From positions 1 to 36,883 of the forward strand of contig JAFDXD010000151.1 in NCBI GenBank assembly GCA_018268135.1: a stretch of 36,883 nt of DNA. The letters run 5' to 3'. A program made the position numbers and the translations under genes. The notes below the pieces were generated by a model. It saw nothing but the letters and a program-made list of their open reading frames with translations. It did not search any database and was not told where the DNA came from. The stretch is from Bacteroidota bacterium. GTDB taxonomy: Bacteria > Bacteroidota > Bacteroidia > Chitinophagales > Chitinophagaceae. Shown piece by piece: positions 4,115 to 25,888 of the stretch (positions are counted from its first letter, which is position 1; every line of letters begins with the position of its first letter).

Positions 4115-4188
4115 GCGTTTACGGGCTTTCCGCTGCAATCTTTTTGTTTTAGAAAAACAAAAAGGATTTCCGCTTCAATCCCTAACGC
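4115..4188 (+). repeat. Palindrome flanked by direct repeats (structured intergenic element)
   Basis: A perfect 11-bp stem (4140-4150 with 4154-4164, loop AGA) is flanked on both sides by nearly identical direct repeats, TTTCCGCTGCAATC at 4127-4140 and TTTCCGCTTCAATC at 4167-4180 (13 of 14 equal). An outer 5-bp pair, GCGTT at 4115-4119 with AACGC at 4184-4188, closes the unit. The element lies between rimO and bshC and could end rimO transcription, although no T-run follows the stem on the plus strand. From memory of other Bacteroidota genomes I believe this kind of unit recurs between genes; that is recollection, not a search. Only one copy is visible in this window. Confidence 0.6.
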
Positions 4189-4224
4189 ACCGGCAGATAG
4201 TCAATAATATTATACAGAAAATAA

Positions 4225-17694: not shown

Positions 17695-17898
17695 ATGAAA
17701 AAATTATTAGCAATTGCAGTTATCGCAATCTCTTTTACAGCTTGTAACGATTCAGCTAAAAAAGCTGATGACACTAAAGCTACTGACACTTCAGCCGTTT
17801 CTACTCCAGCTACTACTGTAGATACTACAGCTAAAGCTGCTACAGTAGATACAACTGCTAAAGCAACTACTCCTGCTGCTGACACAACAAAAAAATAA
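17695..17898 (+). CDS. Small Thr/Ala-rich lipoprotein
   Basis: A 67-residue protein. The N-terminus MKKLLAIAVIAISFTAC is a lipoprotein signal with the lipid-modified Cys17. The mature part is low-complexity, made of Asp/Thr/Ala/Lys with a repeated VDTTAKAT unit, and has no folded domain. Such short tails occur in Bacteroidota lipoproteins that coat the outer membrane or act as expendable proteins; the function here is unknown. It is divergent from the ECF sigma operon and shares its regulatory region, so it may be a target of that sigma factor. It ends before a clear terminator. Confidence 0.85.
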   Translation: MKKLLAIAVIAISFTACNDSAKKADDTKATDTSAVSTPATTVDTTAKAATVDTTAKATTPAADTTKK

Positions 17899-17970
17899 GT
17901 AGTTTTCAATAGTAAATTAACCTCTTGCCGGTTATTTGCTCAGTAAATTTTTTTAGGCAAGCAATCGTAT

Positions 17971-18006
17971 AGCCATCCCGATTTTTATTGAGATGGCTTT
18001 TTTTTT
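17971..18006 (+). terminator. Intrinsic terminator after the small lipoprotein gene
   Basis: Stem AGCCATC (17971-17977) with GATGGCT (17992-17998), 14-base loop, followed by a long T-run (17998 onwards). It insulates the aromatic operon promoter from upstream transcription. Confidence 0.85.
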
Positions 18007-18098: not shown

Positions 18099-18106
18099 TA
18101 GTTTTG
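18099..18106 (+). promoter_or_regulatory. -7 promoter box of the aromatic operon
   Basis: TAGTTTTG fits TAnnTTTG and ends 9 bases before the leader-peptide ATG at 18116, so the leader RNA would start within or just before that codon's upstream bases. A T-run at 18075-18082 sits at the -33 distance. Confidence 0.55.
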
Positions 18107-18115
18107 CATCTTACA

Positions 18116-18199
18116 ATGAAGCATATCAATACATACAACTGGCAATCTTTCTGTTTCTATTATTTTAGCAGCAAGCCGGGTATGGTATGTACACACTGA
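18116..18199 (+). CDS. Aromatic-rich leader peptide of the attenuator
   Basis: A 27-codon open frame (ATG 18116, TGA 18197-18199). Seven of the eleven residues from 7 to 17 are aromatic: Tyr7, Trp9, Phe12, Phe14, Tyr15, Tyr16, Phe17. It starts close behind a promoter box and ends 35 bases before a strong terminator hairpin, which in turn lies just before pheA. The reading frame is far too biased to be chance at this location. By the classical model of amino acid attenuation, ribosomes that stall at these codons when charged tRNA-Trp, -Phe or -Tyr is scarce leave the antiterminator free. The peptide itself is not expected to have a separate function. It is not in frame with pheA. Confidence 0.88.
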   Translation: MKHINTYNWQSFCFYYFSSKPGMVCTH

Positions 18200-18244
18200 G
18201 TGAATAAAAAATAAAATCAGTCAACATAACAAGAAATCCCGGCT
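18174..18244 (+). promoter_or_regulatory. Antiterminator pairing of the aromatic attenuator
   Basis: AGCCGGG (18174-18180) is complementary to CCCGGCT (18238-18244), 7 perfect GC-rich pairs. The second strand is most of the left arm of the terminator, so the two structures exclude each other. The first strand lies in leader codons 20-22, three codons after the aromatic cluster: a ribosome waiting at the cluster would leave it free, whereas one that reaches the TGA at 18197 would cover it. Confidence 0.8.
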
Positions 18245-18264
18245 CAAAAGGCCGGGATTTTTTT
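18234..18264 (+). terminator. Attenuator terminator before pheA
   Basis: Ten-bp stem AAATCCCGGC (18234-18243) with GCCGGGATTT (18251-18260), seven-base loop, T-run 18258-18264. It lies 18 bases before pheA, with no gene end directly upstream that it would need to close, which is what an attenuator looks like. Confidence 0.9.
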
Positions 18265-18282
18265 ATTAAAAAAAATAAATCA

Positions 18283-19113
18283 ATGAGTAGGAAAATAGCA
18301 ATCCAGGGTTTTGAAGGAAGTTTTCACCAGTCTGCCGCAAGGTATTTTTTTGGAAAACAGGTAGAAGTAGTTTGTTGTGGCAGTTTTAGAGAATTAATAA
18401 AAAAAGCAGCCAATAAAGATGAAACGGATGGAGCCATCATGGCTATTGAAAATTCTATTGCCGGAAGCATTCTCCCCAATTACACATTATTGCAAAATTC
18501 CAATCTTAAAATTACCGGCGAAATCTACCTTCACATAAAGCAAAACCTCTTAGTAAACCCCGGTATCAGGCTCGAAGATATTAAAGAAGTTCACTCACAC
18601 CCCATGGCATTGCAGCAGTGCCTCGATTTTTTGGATAAATACAATTGGAAACTGGTAGAAACAGAAGATACCGCCCTTAGCGCTAAACAGGTGCACCAGC
18701 ATAAAAGCAAACATATTGCTGCCATTGCCGGCAAACTTGCGGCAGAACTTTTTCAACTCGAAATGATTGCCCCCAACATACAAACTCAAAAAAATAACTA
18801 TACACGCTTTTTGGTTTTAGAGAGAGAAGAAGAAGCCAGCGAAGTAATTGAAGCTAATAAAGCTTCTGTAAATTTTAATACTGATCACTCAAAAGGCAGC
18901 CTGGCCAAAGTACTTACTAAAATTGCAGATGCGGGAATTAACCTAAGCAAGCTGCAATCTTTTCCCATACCCGGTAGCGACTGGTTATATTCTTTTCATG
19001 CAGATATGGAGTTTGACCATGTACAACAGTTTCATAAACTGGTTAAGAATATCATACCACTAACCAACCATTTTAAAGTATACGGCATTTATAAAAAAGG
19101 GGTAACTAAATAA
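18283..19113 (+). CDS. pheA: Prephenate dehydratase
   Basis: Converts prephenate to phenylpyruvate, the committed step to phenylalanine. The N-terminal catalytic domain (residues 4-180) opens with IQGFEGSFHQSAA and holds the conserved TRF motif (174-176). A C-terminal ACT regulatory domain follows (about 193-270). The usual ESRP Phe-binding motif of the ACT domain reads QSFP here (225-228), so feedback by Phe may differ; a similar change is, I believe, usual in Bacteroidota. There is no chorismate mutase domain, because that activity sits on the DAHP synthase of the same operon. It is the first gene behind the attenuator; the next gene follows after 72 bases. Confidence 0.95.
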   Translation: MSRKIAIQGFEGSFHQSAARYFFGKQVEVVCCGSFRELIKKAANKDETDGAIMAIENSIAGSILPNYTLLQNSNLKITGEIYLHIKQNLLVNPGIRLEDIKEVHSHPMALQQCLDFLDKYNWKLVETEDTALSAKQVHQHKSKHIAAIAGKLAAELFQLEMIAPNIQTQKNNYTRFLVLEREEEASEVIEANKASVNFNTDHSKGSLAKVLTKIADAGINLSKLQSFPIPGSDWLYSFHADMEFDHVQQFHKLVKNIIPLTNHFKVYGIYKKGVTK

Positions 19114-19185: not shown

Positions 19186-20352
19186 ATGCACACAGCAAAA
19201 AGATTAGAAACAATTAATGAATATTATTTCTCTCAAAAGCTAAGAGAAATAGATGAGATGAATAAAGCCGGCAAGGCAGTTATTAACCTGGGTATTGGCA
19301 GCCCCGACCTGCCCCCACACCCCGATGTAATAAAAGTACTGAATGAAGAAAGTATAAAACCAAATGTACATGCTTATCAAAATTATAAAGGCAGTCCGGT
19401 ACTGAGAGAGGCTATGAGCGCATGGTATAAGCGTTGGTATCATGTTACACTTGATGCAAATACAGAAATTCTTCCGCTCATTGGCAGCAAAGAAGGTATT
19501 ATGCATATTTGCATGACTTACTTAAATGAAAATGATGAAGCTTTAATACCCAACCCGGGGTATCCTACTTATCGCTCGGCGGTTACACTTGCCGGAGGTA
19601 CACCGGTAGATTATATTCTTACTGAGGCCAATAACTGGATGCCTGATTTTGCGGAATTAGAAAAAATGGATTTGACTAAAGTAAAACTAATGTTTATCAA
19701 CTATCCTCAAATGCCCACGGGACAGTTGCCTGCCAGGCACACATTTGAACAGGTAGTAAATTTTGCAAAAAAACATAATATCTTATTGGTTCATGATAAT
19801 CCTTACAGTTTTATTTTGAACAGTGAGCCATTAAGTATTCTTAGTACTCCGGGGGCTATGGAAGTAGCACTCGAATTAAATTCACTAAGTAAAAGCCACA
19901 ATATGGCAGGTTGGCGAATAGGTATGCTGTGTGCTTCAAAAGAAAAAATTAATGAAGTGCTTAAATTTAAAAGCAATATGGATAGCGGCATGTTTTTGCC
20001 ATTGCAACTTGCAGCGGCTAAAGCATTATCGCTAAACGAAGATTGGTATCAGCAGGTGAATGAAATTTATAAGGCACGCAGGCAAAAAGTATTTGAATTG
20101 CTGGATTTATTGCAATGTAGTTACAGTAACAGCCAGGCAGGAATGTTTGTTTGGGCCAACATACCATCAGATTATAAAGATGGATATGCCTTAAGCGATG
20201 AAGTGTTGCATCAGGCAAATGTATTTATCACCCCCGGTGGCATATTTGGCACACAAGGAAATAAATATGTAAGAGTAAGCTTGTGTTGTACCGAACAAAG
20301 AATTGACGAAGCTATAAAAAGGATTAAAGTTAATGGAAAATCAAAAGGCTAA
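19186..20352 (+). CDS. Class I/II aminotransferase, probably aromatic or prephenate aminotransferase
   Basis: A fold-type I PLP enzyme of 388 residues. The Schiff-base lysine is Lys236 in SLSKSHNMAGWRIG, and the phosphate-binding arginine Arg244 follows. The DNPYSF segment (204-209) holds the conserved Asp and Tyr. The usual N-x-P-T-G motif reads NYPQMPTG (172-179). Placement between pheA and tyrA points to the last step of Phe and Tyr synthesis, either from phenylpyruvate and hydroxyphenylpyruvate or via prephenate to arogenate. Substrate choice cannot be read from the sequence; annotation as aspartate aminotransferase or LL-diaminopimelate aminotransferase would be less well supported by context. 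Its 3' end overlaps tyrA by 20 bases, so translation is coupled. Confidence 0.88.
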   Translation: MHTAKRLETINEYYFSQKLREIDEMNKAGKAVINLGIGSPDLPPHPDVIKVLNEESIKPNVHAYQNYKGSPVLREAMSAWYKRWYHVTLDANTEILPLIGSKEGIMHICMTYLNENDEALIPNPGYPTYRSAVTLAGGTPVDYILTEANNWMPDFAELEKMDLTKVKLMFINYPQMPTGQLPARHTFEQVVNFAKKHNILLVHDNPYSFILNSEPLSILSTPGAMEVALELNSLSKSHNMAGWRIGMLCASKEKINEVLKFKSNMDSGMFLPLQLAAAKALSLNEDWYQQVNEIYKARRQKVFELLDLLQCSYSNSQAGMFVWANIPSDYKDGYALSDEVLHQANVFITPGGIFGTQGNKYVRVSLCCTEQRIDEAIKRIKVNGKSKG

Positions 20353-21256
20353 GCCAAAGCAAGAAATGACAAAAGCATCACAAAACCCTACCGTGCAAGA
20401 CGAACATAAGGGAGCAGTTGTAACAATTATTGGAGTAGGGTTAATAGGAGGCTCAATGGCATTGGCTTTAAAAGATAAAGGGTTTGCAAAAAAAATAATT
20501 GGCGTAGGCAGAAATGAAGCAAGTTTACAAAAAGCAAAAGAGCTCAACATTATTGATGAGTCAATGCCATTAGAGAAAGCGGTGAAACAAAGTGATATTA
20601 TTTACATTTCAATACCGGTAGATGCCACAGTACCCATTACACTCCAGGTTTTAAATGCAGTGGGCAATAATCAGGTAGTAATAGATGCCGGCTCTACAAA
20701 GTCTGCCCTTTGTCAGGCGGTAGCTACGCACCCTATGCGGAAGCAGTTAGTAGCCACGCATCCCATGTGGGGCACAGAGTATAGTGGCCCCGAAGCTGCT
20801 GTGAGAGGGGCTTTTGAAGGAAGAGCTTGTGTGATTTGCGAACAGGAGTTGAGCGACAAGGCTGCGTTGAAAAAAGTAGAAACTATTTATAACAAACTTG
20901 GCATGCATATTATTTACATGGATGCAGTAAACCATGATATACATGCAGCCTATGTAAGCCATATTTCGCATATCACTTCTTTTGCATTGGCCAATACCGT
21001 TTTGGAAAAAGAAAAAGAAGAAGATGCCATTTTTGAAATGGCGGGTGGTGGTTTTGAAAGTACGGTTCGCCTGGCAAAAAGTAACCCGGCTATGTGGGCG
21101 CCTATTTTTATGCAGAATAAAGAAAATGTACTGGATGTGCTGAATGAACATATTTCGCAACTAAGAAAATTTAAATCAAGCCTTGAAAAAGAAAATATAG
21201 AATATTTAATAGAGCTGATGGAGAATGCAAATAAAATAAAAAGAATAATAAAGTAG
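20333..21256 (+). CDS. tyrA: Prephenate dehydrogenase
   Basis: Oxidatively decarboxylates prephenate to 4-hydroxyphenylpyruvate (or arogenate to tyrosine). The Rossmann NAD(P) motif GVGLIGGSMALALK begins near residue 35. The catalytic segment with THPMWGTEYSGP (about 142-153) and HDIHAAYVSHISH fits TyrA. The length is 307, with no fused chorismate mutase and no ACT domain. A low-complexity N-terminal tail (residues 1-28) comes from the start that overlaps the upstream gene by 20 bases; Met12 is an alternative. It is third in the operon and is followed by a 105-base gap without obvious signals. Confidence 0.93.
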   Translation: MENQKAKPKQEMTKASQNPTVQDEHKGAVVTIIGVGLIGGSMALALKDKGFAKKIIGVGRNEASLQKAKELNIIDESMPLEKAVKQSDIIYISIPVDATVPITLQVLNAVGNNQVVIDAGSTKSALCQAVATHPMRKQLVATHPMWGTEYSGPEAAVRGAFEGRACVICEQELSDKAALKKVETIYNKLGMHIIYMDAVNHDIHAAYVSHISHITSFALANTVLEKEKEEDAIFEMAGGGFESTVRLAKSNPAMWAPIFMQNKENVLDVLNEHISQLRKFKSSLEKENIEYLIELMENANKIKRIIK

Positions 21257-21361: not shown

Positions 21362-22453
21362 ATGCAAACAGAAACTAAAACAATGAAACAAGACATCATG
21401 CAGGTATGGAATAAAAGGCCCCTCATTATTAGCGGGCCTTGCAGCGCCGAAACCGAAGAACAGGTATTGGAAACTGCACAGCGTTTAGCCGCTACCGGTA
21501 GAGTAGATATGCTAAGAGCCGGTATTTGGAAACCACGTACTAAACCCGGATTATTTGAAGGCATTGGTACCAAAGGTTTGCCATGGATGGCACAAGCTAA
21601 AAAAGCTACAGGCTTGCCCATAACTGTAGAAGTAGCTACTGCCAAACATGTACAGGATGCATTGCAATTTGATGTAGATGTACTTTGGATTGGTGCAAGA
21701 ACAACTGTAAATCCATTTAGTGTGCAGGAAGTAGCAGACGCATTACGTGGAGTGGACATTCCCGTACTTGTAAAAAATCCGGTACACCCCGACCTTGATT
21801 TGTGGACAGGCGCTATTGAGCGTTTACAAAAAGTTGGTTTAAAAAACATCGGAATGATTCATCGTGGGTTTTCGGCTTATGGCAATACCGAATTCCGAAA
21901 TGCACCTATGTGGCATCTGCCCATCGCAATGAAAAGGCGTTTTCCGGAAATGCTGTTGATATGCGATCCTTCACATATTTGTGGCAACAGGCACATGCTG
22001 CAATCCATTGCTCAAAAAAGTATTGACCTTGATTTTGGTGGACTTATTATTGAAAGCCATATTGACCCTGACAATGCCTGGAGCGACGCTAAACAACAAA
22101 TTACCCCCGAAACCCTTGGAAAAATGTTGGATTCATTGGCATGGAGACATGAAAATACAAGCGAACAGGAATTTTTATCTGCATTATCAAAACTAAGGGA
22201 GCAAATAAATCATATAGATGATGAATTGCTGACCCTGATGAGCCAACGTATGAAAATTGCCGATAAAATTGGTGAATATAAAAGAGCTAATAGCATTACC
22301 ATTTTGCAAACAAACCGCTGGAACGAAATTTTAGAAAAAGCAATTGCAAAAGGCGAAAAACTGGGCCTTAGTAATGAGTTTATTACAAAATACCTTGATG
22401 CAGTGCATTTAGAAAGTATCAGCCATCAAAACAAAATAATGAATGAAGAGTAA
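21362..22453 (+). CDS. aroG: Bifunctional DAHP synthase / chorismate mutase
   Basis: A fusion of two activities at both ends of the common pathway. Residues 1-260 form a DAHP synthase of the short type I-beta (KDOP-like) class: GPCSAET (about 20-26), RAGIWKPRTKPG (the KPRT motif), KNPVHPDLDLW and DPSHICGNR. Residues 272-355 form an AroQ-type chorismate mutase helix bundle (LREQINHIDDELLTLMSQRMKIADKIGEYK). DAHP synthase starts the shikimate pathway and chorismate mutase makes prephenate for PheA and TyrA, so the fusion probably allows feedback through the mutase domain. This arrangement is known from other Bacteroidota. Symbol choice is arbitrary because names for this fusion vary (aroA, aroG, aroF). 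Confidence 0.93.
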   Translation: MQTETKTMKQDIMQVWNKRPLIISGPCSAETEEQVLETAQRLAATGRVDMLRAGIWKPRTKPGLFEGIGTKGLPWMAQAKKATGLPITVEVATAKHVQDALQFDVDVLWIGARTTVNPFSVQEVADALRGVDIPVLVKNPVHPDLDLWTGAIERLQKVGLKNIGMIHRGFSAYGNTEFRNAPMWHLPIAMKRRFPEMLLICDPSHICGNRHMLQSIAQKSIDLDFGGLIIESHIDPDNAWSDAKQQITPETLGKMLDSLAWRHENTSEQEFLSALSKLREQINHIDDELLTLMSQRMKIADKIGEYKRANSITILQTNRWNEILEKAIAKGEKLGLSNEFITKYLDAVHLESISHQNKIMNEE

Positions 22454-22534
22454 CAACAGCGGGCTGCTGTATTTTTAATTTTTTAAATGCAGGCAACCCG
22501 GCTTATTTTATTTTTTTTAGGGAGATATAAATTT

Positions 22535-23563
22535 ATGAAAAGAGAAACATTTGTTTTTTCACAAAAAAAGGTTGACTATCTATTTGATGCATCTTTTAAC
22601 GAGATTGAAAATTTTTTTCCAAAAGAAAAAATTATCATCATTACAGATGATAACCTTTTTAAGCACCATGCCACCCGGTTTGAAGCTTATAAAGTAATAA
22701 CCATACCACACGGCGAAGCTCATAAGCAGCAGGCTACTATCGACAATATAGTGCAGCAGTTGCTTGCATTTGAAGCAGATAAACAATCATGCATTGTAGG
22801 CGTTGGTGGTGGCGTAGTTACAGATATGGCAGGATATGCCGCATCCATTTTTAAGCGTGGCACAAAACTCGCCCTGGCTCCAACTTCTATATTGGCAATG
22901 GTAGATGCCGCCATTGGAGGTAAAAATGGGATAGATGTAGGGCCTTATAAAAATATGGTGGGTACGGTGCATCAGCCGGATGTTTTATTATTTGATTATA
23001 GTTTTTTATCAACATTGCCCACCGAAGAATGGGTAAATGGCTTTGCTGAAATAGTAAAACATGCCTGCATTAAAGATGCTGACTTGTTTGATTTGCTTCA
23101 GCAGAATACTATTGAAAAATTTATGGCTGATAAAGCTGCAATTGCAGCGCTTGTAGAAAGAAATGTGGCCATTAAAACTTCGGTAGTATTGCAGGACGAG
23201 TTTGAAACCGGCGATCGTAAATTGCTAAATTTTGGACATACCATTGGCCATGCAATTGAAAATATATACCATCTGCCCCATGGCCATGCGGTTAGTATTG
23301 GCATGGTTGCAGCTTGCAATATTTCGGAAGAAATAAATAATTTTTATTCTGTTGATAAAGAAAAAATAGTAAAGCTGTTAGAGCAATACCGGCTGCCGGT
23401 AAAAATAAATATTGATACCGATAAAATTTGGGAGCTGCTATTAATGGATAAGAAAAGAAATGCAGGAAATATGAATTTTATTCTGTTAAATAAAATAGGC
23501 GATGCTACAATTGTACCTATTGGATTGATTCAGTTAAAACAATTAGTAAAAGAAAGCCTGTAA
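22535..23563 (+). CDS. aroB: 3-dehydroquinate synthase
   Basis: Cyclises DAHP to 3-dehydroquinate with NAD and a metal ion. Typical segments are VGVGGGVVTDMAGYAASIFKRGT, PTSILAMVDAAIGGKNGID and LNFGHTIGHAIE, the latter two with metal- and substrate-binding residues. I chose Met at 22535 (342 residues) instead of 22487: the 16 extra residues are not conserved-looking, and an AGGGAGA ribosome-binding-like word lies 10 bases upstream of 22535. An intergenic 5-bp hairpin (22456-22470) with a weak T-rich tail precedes the gene, but it looks too weak to stop transcription. The gene is followed after 26 bases by aroA. Confidence 0.94.
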   Translation: MKRETFVFSQKKVDYLFDASFNEIENFFPKEKIIIITDDNLFKHHATRFEAYKVITIPHGEAHKQQATIDNIVQQLLAFEADKQSCIVGVGGGVVTDMAGYAASIFKRGTKLALAPTSILAMVDAAIGGKNGIDVGPYKNMVGTVHQPDVLLFDYSFLSTLPTEEWVNGFAEIVKHACIKDADLFDLLQQNTIEKFMADKAAIAALVERNVAIKTSVVLQDEFETGDRKLLNFGHTIGHAIENIYHLPHGHAVSIGMVAACNISEEINNFYSVDKEKIVKLLEQYRLPVKINIDTDKIWELLLMDKKRNAGNMNFILLNKIGDATIVPIGLIQLKQLVKESL

Positions 23564-23589: not shown

Positions 23590-24870
23590 ATGAAAGTAAC
23601 CATACAGCCTACTGTACTTAAAGGCGAAATATTTGCAGCAGCCTCTAAAAGCGCTATGCAGCGTGCTTGTGCGGCGGCATTATTGCATCATGGGCATACC
23701 AATATTATCAACCCGGGCAAAAGCAATGATGATATTGCAGCCCTTTCTATTATTAAAAATCTTGGCGCTTTTATACAGCAAAATGCCGACGGAAGTATCA
23801 GCATTGAGTCTTTGCATTATCCTGCGGAAGATGCTAAAAATAAAGAAATTAATTGCGGCGAAAGTGGTTTAAGTATCAGGATGTTTGTGCCAATAGCTGC
23901 ATTAAACTCAGCGCCCATACAGGTTACGGGTAGTGGCAGCTTACTCACACGTCCCATGGATTTTTTTGATGAAATTTTGCCAAAGCTAAGTGTGCAAATA
24001 CAATCTAATGCTGGCAGGTTGCCATTGCATTTGCAGGGGCCTTTATTACCCGGCGACATTACTATTGATGGTTCCTTAAGCTCCCAATTTCTTACAGGCT
24101 TATTAATGGCATTTGCAAAAGCAGCCACTAAGCAGGTAACCATCACCGTTATTAATTTAAAAAGCAAGCCATATATAGATCTTACGCTGCAAATAATGAA
24201 GTTATTTGGATACGAGGTAAAGAATGAAAATTATGAGCGTTTTATCATACAGCCTCAGCCCAGGTTTGATAAAGATGTAACCTACACTGTAGAAGGCGAT
24301 TGGAGTGGCGCTGCCTTTTTATTGGTAGCAGGCGCCATTGCAGGCGATATTAAAGTGAAAGGCCTCGATATACAATCTGCCCAGGCTGATAAAGCCATCC
24401 TGAATGCCCTCATTCTGGCAAAAGCGGCTATGAAAATTTCGGACAATGAAATTGAGCTGCACTCCAAAAGCCTTGAAGCATTTGAGTTTGATGCAACAGA
24501 TTGCCCGGATCTTTTTCCACCTTTAGTTGCATTGGCAGTATATTGCCAGGGTACTACCGTTATTAAAGGCGTAAGCAGGCTGGCGCATAAAGAAAGCAAT
24601 AGGGCCTTAACTTTGCAGCAGGAGTTTGCCAAAATGGGCGTAACCATACTTTTAGAAGATGATGTAATGAAAATAGAGGGAGGGGGTAAAGTACATGGGG
24701 CAGCCTTGCACTCAAGGCACGATCATCGCATTGCAATGGCCGGCGCCATAGCAGCACTAAGGGCTGAGGGGTTTACTACTATTGATGAGGCAGATGCCAT
24801 CAATAAATCATACCCCGATTTTTATGAGCATATAAAGCACTTAGGCGCATCCGTTAGTATCAATCAATAG
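23590..24870 (+). CDS. aroA: 3-phosphoshikimate 1-carboxyvinyltransferase (EPSP synthase)
   Basis: Adds the enolpyruvyl group of PEP to shikimate-3-phosphate. Substrate-binding motifs are present: SKSAMQRACAAALL (residues 17-30), NCGESGLSIRMF, SSQFLTGLLMAF, the catalytic aspartate in DCPDLFPPL and the late RHDHRIAMAGAIAALRAEG motif. 426 residues is the normal size. Whether it is of the glyphosate-sensitive or -insensitive class cannot be judged reliably here. It sits between aroB (26 bases) and aroC (22 bases), so it is co-transcribed. The shikimate steps in between (aroD/aroQ, aroE, aroK) are not in this window. Confidence 0.95.
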   Translation: MKVTIQPTVLKGEIFAAASKSAMQRACAAALLHHGHTNIINPGKSNDDIAALSIIKNLGAFIQQNADGSISIESLHYPAEDAKNKEINCGESGLSIRMFVPIAALNSAPIQVTGSGSLLTRPMDFFDEILPKLSVQIQSNAGRLPLHLQGPLLPGDITIDGSLSSQFLTGLLMAFAKAATKQVTITVINLKSKPYIDLTLQIMKLFGYEVKNENYERFIIQPQPRFDKDVTYTVEGDWSGAAFLLVAGAIAGDIKVKGLDIQSAQADKAILNALILAKAAMKISDNEIELHSKSLEAFEFDATDCPDLFPPLVALAVYCQGTTVIKGVSRLAHKESNRALTLQQEFAKMGVTILLEDDVMKIEGGGKVHGAALHSRHDHRIAMAGAIAALRAEGFTTIDEADAINKSYPDFYEHIKHLGASVSINQ

Positions 24871-24892: not shown

Positions 24893-25888
24893 TTGAACAG
24901 TTTTGGAACCATATTCAGGGTAAGTATTTTTGGAGAGTCTCACGGGCCTTTTGTAGGCATAAGCATTGATGGATGCCCTGCAGGCATTCCCTTAAATGCA
25001 TCAGATTTTGCAAATGATATTGAAAGGCGCAAAGGCGGCACCAAGGGCACTACTCCCCGTAAGGAAGATGATATTCCTGTTTTTATTTCAGGAGTATTTA
25101 ATGAAAAAACTACCGGGGCGCCGCTTACCATTATTTTTGAAAATAAAAATACCCGTAGCAGCGATTATGAAAAATTACGCACTGTGCCCAGGCCGGGCCA
25201 TGCAGATTTTGTAGCTTCCCAAAAATTTAATGGCTTTGAAGATTATAGAGGCGGCGGCCACTTTAGCGGCAGGCTCACCGTATGCCTTGTAGCAGCAGGG
25301 GTGGTAGCCAAAAAAATACTTTTTTACGCCAGCGATGATATTACCTGCACCGCCATTATAAAAGAAGTGGCAGGCGAAACAGATATTGAAAAAGGTTTGC
25401 AAAAAGCTATTGATGCAAAAGATAGTGTAGGGGGTATTGTAGAGTGTGAAGTAACTAACCTGCCCATTGGGTTGGGAGAGCCATTTTTTAATTCTGTAGA
25501 ATCTGTATTGAGCCATGCTGTTTTTGCAATTCCTGCCATTAAAGGAATAGAATTTGGCGCCGGGTTTGCTGCCGCAAAAATGTACGGCATTGAGCATAAT
25601 GATGCCATTGAAAACGCAGAAGGCAAAACCAAGACCAACCATGCCGGAGGCATTGTGGGCGGTATTACCAATGGCAATGATCTTATTTTTAGAGTAGTAG
25701 TAAAGCCAACATCTTCTACTCCAAAAGAGCAGCAAACATTTAATAAAGAAACCCAAACAGTAGAGCCTTTTTCAGTAAAAGGCAGGCACGACCTCTGCAT
25801 TGCCCTAAGGGTGCCGGTAGTATTAGAAGCAGTAACGGCAATGGTATTAGCCGATTTGCTAATGCTGGAAAATAGAAATAAGTTTTAA
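24893..25888 (+). CDS. aroC: Chorismate synthase, TTG start
   Basis: Last step to chorismate, an FMN-dependent elimination. The N-terminus NSFGTIFRVSIFGESHG is the conserved family start, and the frame has only TTG at 24893 in the correct place, so a TTG start is required. RPGHADF and DYRGGGHFSGRLT hold FMN- and substrate-binding residues. The latter differs from the common RGGGRSSARET form and looks like the variant of clostridial enzymes. At 331 residues it is shorter than the usual 350-370, mainly in internal loops, while the C-terminal RHDLCIALRVPVVLEAVTAMVLADLL is complete. It is the last gene of the aromatic operon. The hairpin that follows has its T-run on the opposite strand. Confidence 0.94.
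   Translation: MNSFGTIFRVSIFGESHGPFVGISIDGCPAGIPLNASDFANDIERRKGGTKGTTPRKEDDIPVFISGVFNEKTTGAPLTIIFENKNTRSSDYEKLRTVPRPGHADFVASQKFNGFEDYRGGGHFSGRLTVCLVAAGVVAKKILFYASDDITCTAIIKEVAGETDIEKGLQKAIDAKDSVGGIVECEVTNLPIGLGEPFFNSVESVLSHAVFAIPAIKGIEFGAGFAAAKMYGIEHNDAIENAEGKTKTNHAGGIVGGITNGNDLIFRVVVKPTSSTPKEQQTFNKETQTVEPFSVKGRHDLCIALRVPVVLEAVTAMVLADLLMLENRNKF

Follow-up and report, generated by a model that had tools for sequence, protein, structure and literature searches.

The window, by which we mean the whole stretch of 36,883 nucleotides analyzed here, carries on its plus strand a set of seven genes for the synthesis of aromatic amino acids. The set opens with pheA (prephenate dehydratase, 18283–19113) and continues with an aminotransferase gene of the LL-DAP/aspartate type with a presumed aromatic role (19186–20352), tyrA (prephenate dehydrogenase, 20333–21256), a gene for DAHP synthase with a fused C-terminal chorismate mutase (21362–22453), aroB (3-dehydroquinate synthase, 22487–23563), aroA (EPSP synthase, 23590–24870) and aroC (chorismate synthase, 24893–25888, with a TTG start). 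TyrA, AroB, AroA and AroC score above the curated cut-offs of their own best NCBIfam families. PheA (193.7 against 219 bits), the aminotransferase (400.5 against 507 bits) and DAHP synthase (165.2 against 335 bits) lie under their cut-offs, and these three names are therefore given by best match alone. Read in this way, the NCBIfam matches confirm the content of the seven-gene aromatic operon that an earlier, sequence-only reading of the window had placed behind a leader. The order of the first two genes recurs in relatives: 79 of 80 named loci (the best 80 of 171) have an aminotransferase gene next behind pheA, in the same orientation. Inside the operon, a weak terminator-like hairpin (22456–22470, plus strand) lies downstream of the DAHP synthase gene, in the gap before aroB. 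Upstream of the operon there is a small lipoprotein-like ORF (17695–17898, plus strand), starting with MKKLLAIAVIAISFTACND and rich in Thr, Ala and Asp. The sole Rfam match at gathering score in the whole window is a Flavo-1 RNA (RF01705, 68.5 bits, gathering score 42) at 4115–4199 on the minus strand, between two plus-strand ORFs.

The region ahead of pheA, on the same strand, holds the parts of a putative attenuator. A −7 box, TAGTTTTG (TAnnTTTG, 18099–18106), predicts a transcription start near 18111, and a leader peptide ORF of 27 codons, MKHINTYNWQSFCFYYFSSKPGMVCTH, extends from an ATG at 18116 to a TGA at 18199. Its codons 7–17 (18134–18166) include three Tyr, one Trp and three Phe codons (Tyr7, Trp9, Phe12, Phe14, Tyr15, Tyr16 and Phe17). 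Further along the ORF lies strand 2, whose antiterminator core AGCCGGG (18174–18180) is complementary to strand 3, CCCGGCU (18238–18244), a segment common to the antiterminator and the terminator; both strands are placed by the fold and by covariation. Strand 2 extends over 18183–18190, a stretch supported by the fold and by covariation in the alignment described below (A1): UG (18183–18184) pairs with 18230–18231, and UAUGU (18186–18190) pairs with ACAUA (18224–18228). The 3′ partners of this extension (18217–18231) also include UCAGU (18217–18221), which pairs in the fold with ACUGA (18195–18199), and their region contains an AACAT block conserved in A1. An intrinsic terminator (18231–18270) is predicted from the fold and the alignment, with a stem formed by 18231–18244 and 18250–18263 and followed by a T-run. 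A candidate strand 1, ACUGGCA (18138–18144), contains the Trp codon and can pair with strand 2 in duplex and full-length folds. Recomputed positions agree with the sequence-only reading for the −7 box, the 27-codon frame, the aromatic codons, the antiterminator strand behind them and the terminator before pheA. The description of that terminator as perfect needs amending: the hairpin and T-run are present and the core UCCCGGC/GCCGGGA pairs perfectly, but wobble pairs occur among the 14 of the stem, a G-U close to its base and a U-G at its apex. A plain terminator scan lists the hairpin on the minus strand only, and its omission on the plus strand is probably caused by the stem running into the T-run.

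The 163-nt leader folds with −40.5 kcal/mol, compared with −24.4 for shuffled sequences (z −5.2). We also folded the RNA left free by a ribosome at different positions, with the reach past the A site set, as an assumption, at 12 nt. An A site on codon 9 gives the antiterminator at −22.6, and an A site on codon 12, 14, 15 or 16 gives it at −19.1 each. On codon 17 the antiterminator is weakened (−13.8 versus −19.1), and strand 2 may be partly covered. When the ribosome stands at the stop codon, the free RNA forms the terminator only (−20.5). In these models the antiterminator is thus predicted to exclude the terminator and to stay free ahead of a stalled ribosome. In relatives, the median distance from the last aromatic codon to the start of strand 2 is 11 nt, which is roughly the reach of a ribosome stalled at that codon. 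The full RNA without a ribosome combines the strand 1:2 pairing with the terminator (−40.5). Before strand 4 exists, the antiterminator is preferred over the protecting 1:2 hairpin in the absence of a ribosome (−22.8), so that an untranslated leader might read through. A synonymous-codon test of the strand 1:2 pairing gave −8.45 for the family's own sequences against a null of −7.24, with 71 of 106 related sequences beating the null mean; the 32 class sequences showed no significant signal (p 0.09). The pairing of the Trp codon with strand 2 in Trp-bearing relatives, described below, speaks for the 1:2 hairpin. Because the strand 1 signal is weak and the antiterminator forms before strand 4, we do not claim a full four-strand design.

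To follow the leader through relatives we searched for PheA and obtained matches in 28 of 59 genomes in the genus, 137 of 194 in the family, 73 of 246 in the class, which we take to be Bacteroidia, and 102 of 118 in the phylum. The family set consists of 116 pheA upstream regions, one of them that of the window itself. It draws on 27 of 29 genus loci (L027 and L030 were dropped, as the match lacked the PheA start), 29 loci from the family search and 60 regions chosen manually among matches lacking a locus, as a rule one for each genus and in some cases two. L120–L123 were dropped from the class set as members of the same family, and the class matches G276, G356 and G484 were left out. A first detector, looking for a short ORF with at least four Phe, Tyr or Trp codons in ten and an intrinsic terminator within the following 150 nt, found a leader with terminator in 109 of the 116 family regions. 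Stricter versions retained 109 (at least five aromatic codons), 107 (at least six) and 93 (with the exact antiterminator segment too), while dinucleotide shuffles passed these three criteria in 5, 3 and 1 of 2320 cases, and control windows from the same loci in 0 of 663. Among the seven family regions that fail, L025 shows a leader by eye. The named loci, which partly repeat genomes of the genus and family sets, pass in 79 of 80 cases (the best 80 of 171 encoding a relative). Judged by these sequence counts, the combination of leader and terminator is not a product of chance.

Outside the family, the first detector passes 33 of 64 class-level regions. A fold-based detector, which accepts 106 of the 116 family regions and 0 of 320 crude shuffles (two-base blocks), passes 45 of the 64, distributed over 17 of 24 families of the class. 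The sequence-only reading had proposed conservation of the aromatic codon cluster in relatives as a test, and the cluster is strongly conserved at both levels (109 of 116 family regions and 45 of 64 class regions). The fold-based detector fails 19 class-level regions and finds no leader in families f12 (0 of 7 regions), f20, f21, f23, f58, f62 and f66 (one or two regions each). In family f15 it passes three of six regions, and in the three failures pheA seems, by eye, to stand directly behind another gene. Among 26 upstream regions from other classes of the phylum, 20 have no leader, four give weak, chance-like matches, and two, L302 (family f75) and L313 (family f72), have a clear Phe/Tyr leader followed by a terminator; with only these two outside the class, we do not claim a spread over the whole phylum. 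The PheA proteins of L302 and L313 are 47 and 43% identical to that of the window, closer than most outside the class. A joint transfer of gene and leader would fit these two cases.

The promoter box accompanies the leader in relatives as well. Of the 107 family leaders that begin with ATG, 98 have the motif TAnnTT[TC]G no more than 60 nt ahead of this codon, compared with 9.1 expected from shuffles. Counted to the nearest in-frame leader ATG, its distance across these 107 leaders is at most 12 nt in 90 and between 4 and 9 nt in 87, with a median of 7 nt. Class leaders carry the box in 19 of 33 cases (1.7 expected), at a median distance of 20 nt. In Flavobacterium psychrophilum, the box is placed at −12 to −5 relative to the start site in the excerpted transcriptome study (PMC9723704). 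If this spacing applies here, most family leader RNAs would begin 0–5 nt before the AUG, and that of the window 5 nt before it. The position of the box alone thus suggests that most family leaders start near-leaderless.

Covariation ties the competing helices together. Strand 2 pairs more strongly with its own terminator arm than with arms swapped between sequences, both in the family (−13.84 versus −12.47 kcal/mol, n = 107) and in the class (−12.84 versus −9.51 kcal/mol, n = 33), with 0 of 10000 permutations reaching the own value in either set. With one sequence per family (16 families) the values are −12.16 and −8.81, and the own value was unreached in 200 draws of 500 permutations. Alignment A1 comprises 60 of the 109 family sequences, which are related to one another. 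Its antiterminator helices (columns 42–48/111–117 and 54–61/94–102) have 81% of cells paired and both-side changes in 12 of 15 pairs (0 of 500 shuffles), and all five measures lie above every one of 500 shuffles and every slid version. The terminator has 93% of cells paired; both-side changes in 3 of its 7 pairs are not above shuffles, and the remaining covariation measures exceed them. A per-site test along a PheA tree of 96 tips, which concerns one site, leans in the same direction at low power: of just four supported independent pairs, an average of 1.9 change as expected, 0.1 change oppositely and 2.0 are equal, and the terminator side gives 0.3 of 3. The mutually exclusive pairing of 18174–18180 with 18238–18244, likewise nominated by the sequence-only reading for a test in relatives, proves to be conserved with covarying arms. 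The leader C-termini of relatives (RPGAFC, RPGMLLL and SRVVFAKA) are encoded by similar RNA in differing frames, which suggests that the RNA itself is conserved.

The same genome has further leaders of this kind. Upstream of trpE (L268, G000:C27, reverse strand) lies a Trp leader, MTTTKLNNKSWCWHINNN, with two Trp codons and the terminator GGCCCCGACACAAUGUGUUGGGGU; in the genus search, 19 of the best 21 trpE loci likewise have a terminator behind a leader that contains two or three Trp codons. Upstream of hisG (L270, G000:C8), the leader MIQINHIHHHHLLPTGKLC has five His codons and is also followed by a terminator, and the genus search finds a His-rich leader with terminator at 19 of 20 hisG loci. 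No leader with a terminator was found at leuA of this genome. Since trpE and hisG carry analogous leaders, several amino-acid operons of this organism appear to be under leader-peptide attenuation.

The hairpin before pheA might have a simpler role, merely ending the transcript of the upstream lipoprotein-like gene, with the ORF as a chance frame in an AT-rich region whose base composition makes Phe and Tyr codons frequent. That gene, however, seems to own a hairpin with a long loop and a T-run near 17970–18006 (seen by eye and absent from the terminator scan), and the −7 box stands between this hairpin and the leader. A leader together with a terminator is next to absent from shuffles and control windows, and strand 2 covaries with the terminator arm; the probability of a constitutive terminator is close to negligible. 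A riboswitch or T-box, in which the RNA would directly bind a metabolite or an uncharged tRNA and the ORF would go unread, likewise toggles between a terminator and an antiterminator. The conserved stretch upstream of strand 2 is nevertheless a reading frame of Phe and Tyr codons, and neither an aromatic leader nor a T-box family at cut-off was found in the leader by Rfam searches at gathering and lax thresholds: no family reaches its gathering score, and the 31 sub-gathering matches of the lax search include no T-box, which makes a direct RNA sensor highly improbable. Membership in the T-box family was rejected on the same searches. Leader translation could also act by means other than termination, such as reinitiation at pheA or mRNA stability. 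In the excerpt of a study of Bacteroidetes, close upstream leader ORFs may feed reinitiation, with a peak at 11–14 bp (PMC4833913). Here, 83 nt separate the leader stop from the pheA start, with the terminator in between, and the hairpin and T-run are conserved, so we consider control of this type very unlikely.

The alternative that keeps attenuation itself concerns the amino acids sensed. Phe is present in all 107 distinct family leaders, Tyr in 106 and Trp in 23, with mean numbers of 5.5, 3.5 and 0.22 per leader; among 32 distinct class leaders, Phe and Tyr are present in all and Trp in 13. By these codon counts, the conserved signal is Phe plus Tyr. A sensor of three amino acids, in which Trp shortage would also stall the ribosome at codon 9 and open the operon, is in keeping with the modeled release of the antiterminator from that position, with the use of the operon's chorismate for Trp too, and with the retention of Trp in some near relatives (TYNW in L002, L014, L020, L188 and L194). 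Against it stand the rarity of Trp in family and class leaders, the single Trp codon beside three Phe and three Tyr codons, and the separate Trp leader at trpE. Where Trp is present, it mostly heads the aromatic cluster. In 24 of 28 Trp leaders the UGG codon is paired with strand 2, compared with 7.8 expected from mean coverage, an expectation that is low since UGG is G-rich; only leaders with a strand 2 pairing of −7 kcal/mol or stronger entered this count. The rarity, the pairing of UGG and the separate trpE leader make a Trp response doubtful, and we regard the three-amino-acid sensor as unlikely. The initial proposal that one leader responds to Phe, Tyr and Trp supply therefore stands for Phe and Tyr, and Trp sensing is not supported as a general property.

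It is highly probable, in our assessment of the sequence evidence, that the pheA leader acts as a ribosome-mediated transcription attenuator responding to Phe and Tyr. A putative leader ORF with clustered codons for the regulated amino acids is followed by a predicted intrinsic terminator ahead of the first structural gene, and the downstream genes (pheA, tyrA and the chorismate genes) make the amino acids sensed. The parts of this switch, their conservation, the covariation of both helices and the fold outcomes at the ribosome positions tried are direct observations. RNA polymerase would start ~5 nt before the leader ATG, so that a ribosome would load at once on a near-leaderless RNA. When Phe-tRNA or Tyr-tRNA is scarce, the ribosome would stall on codons 12–17, leaving strand 2 (18174–18190) free to pair with 18217–18244; the antiterminator would then sequester the terminator's 5′ arm, allowing transcription to proceed into pheA and the other six genes. 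When Phe and Tyr are ample, the ribosome would cover strand 2 up to the stop codon, the terminator (18231–18263) would form and transcription would end near 18264. As either shortage would stall the ribosome, the leader would apply OR logic to the operon's two end products. We infer the start site, leader translation, stalling, termination and the response to Phe and Tyr.

Leader-peptide attenuation is best known from Proteobacteria. In Escherichia coli, a Phe-rich leader (pheL) precedes pheA, and an antiterminator and a terminator compete for one strand. The window leader has its logic in common with this attenuator (RF01859, Phe_leader); unlike pheL, it mixes Phe with Tyr, precedes an operon that includes tyrA and chorismate genes, and would be near-leaderless. 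With 22.3 bits where 55 are needed to reach the gathering score, the window leader is not a member of RF01859. The Trp_leader and His_leader families of Rfam follow the same logic with other sensed amino acids and genes. Lopatovskaya et al. (2010) may list Bacteroidetes cases. Attenuators predicted in other phyla belong, going by the excerpted texts, to the same regulation class and were found by a similar comparative method (PMC1262725, PMC3766115). According to the Actinobacteria excerpt, the Phe and Tyr operons of that phylum showed no conserved RNA structures in front of them (PMC1262725), and the excerpt of the other paper, a survey, suggests a possible origin of such motifs in gamma-proteobacteria, with transfers being very rare (PMC3766115).

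Closer to the present case, B. thetaiotaomicron has long 5′ regions with small ORFs, which an excerpt of PMC7366714 calls reminiscent of leader peptides. A 2021 transcriptome of F. psychrophilum reports, in its excerpt, strong indications of leader-peptide attenuation ahead of amino-acid operons, with conserved 5′ elements at pheA, hisG and other genes in Flavobacteriaceae that have no Rfam hits (PMC9723704). Its pheA element resembles ours in phylum, gene and a structured, conserved 5′ region without an Rfam hit, and is likely the same element; the excerpt describes it without codon content, a switch model or a spread beyond Flavobacteriaceae. The statement that such attenuators are hardly described in Bacteroidota thus holds for the codon content and the switch, which that excerpt does not give, but not for attenuation clues and the pheA 5′ element, which it already reports. 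In a search of open-access literature, we found no description of a Phe and Tyr leader in Bacteroidota. The attenuation logic itself is known; new are the breadth of occurrence, the mix of Phe and Tyr, the predicted near-leaderless start, and an operon that reaches from chorismate to Phe and Tyr.

Taken more broadly, the pattern in these sequences leads us to a tentative proposal, to which we give slightly less than even weight: much of Bacteroidia may have inherited an own Phe and Tyr attenuator at pheA, beside the Trp and His attenuators in the genus of the window; in the family it would be near-leaderless, with the 5′ end mostly 0–5 nt before the AUG and with ribosome and polymerase coupled from the outset, and the Trp codon would serve mainly as an RNA strand rather than as a sensor. 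A conserved attenuator with covarying arms, present in 17 families of the class besides that of the window and thus in 18 altogether, would mean a separate, old and broad use of this regulation in another main phylum. The phylum is described, in the excerpted F. psychrophilum study, as lacking Shine-Dalgarno sequences (PMC9723704). In laboratory strains of the phylum, the leader would report on the supply of Phe and Tyr. Attenuation needs tight coupling of ribosome and polymerase, and a simple leader reporter would make this coupling testable in Bacteroidota.
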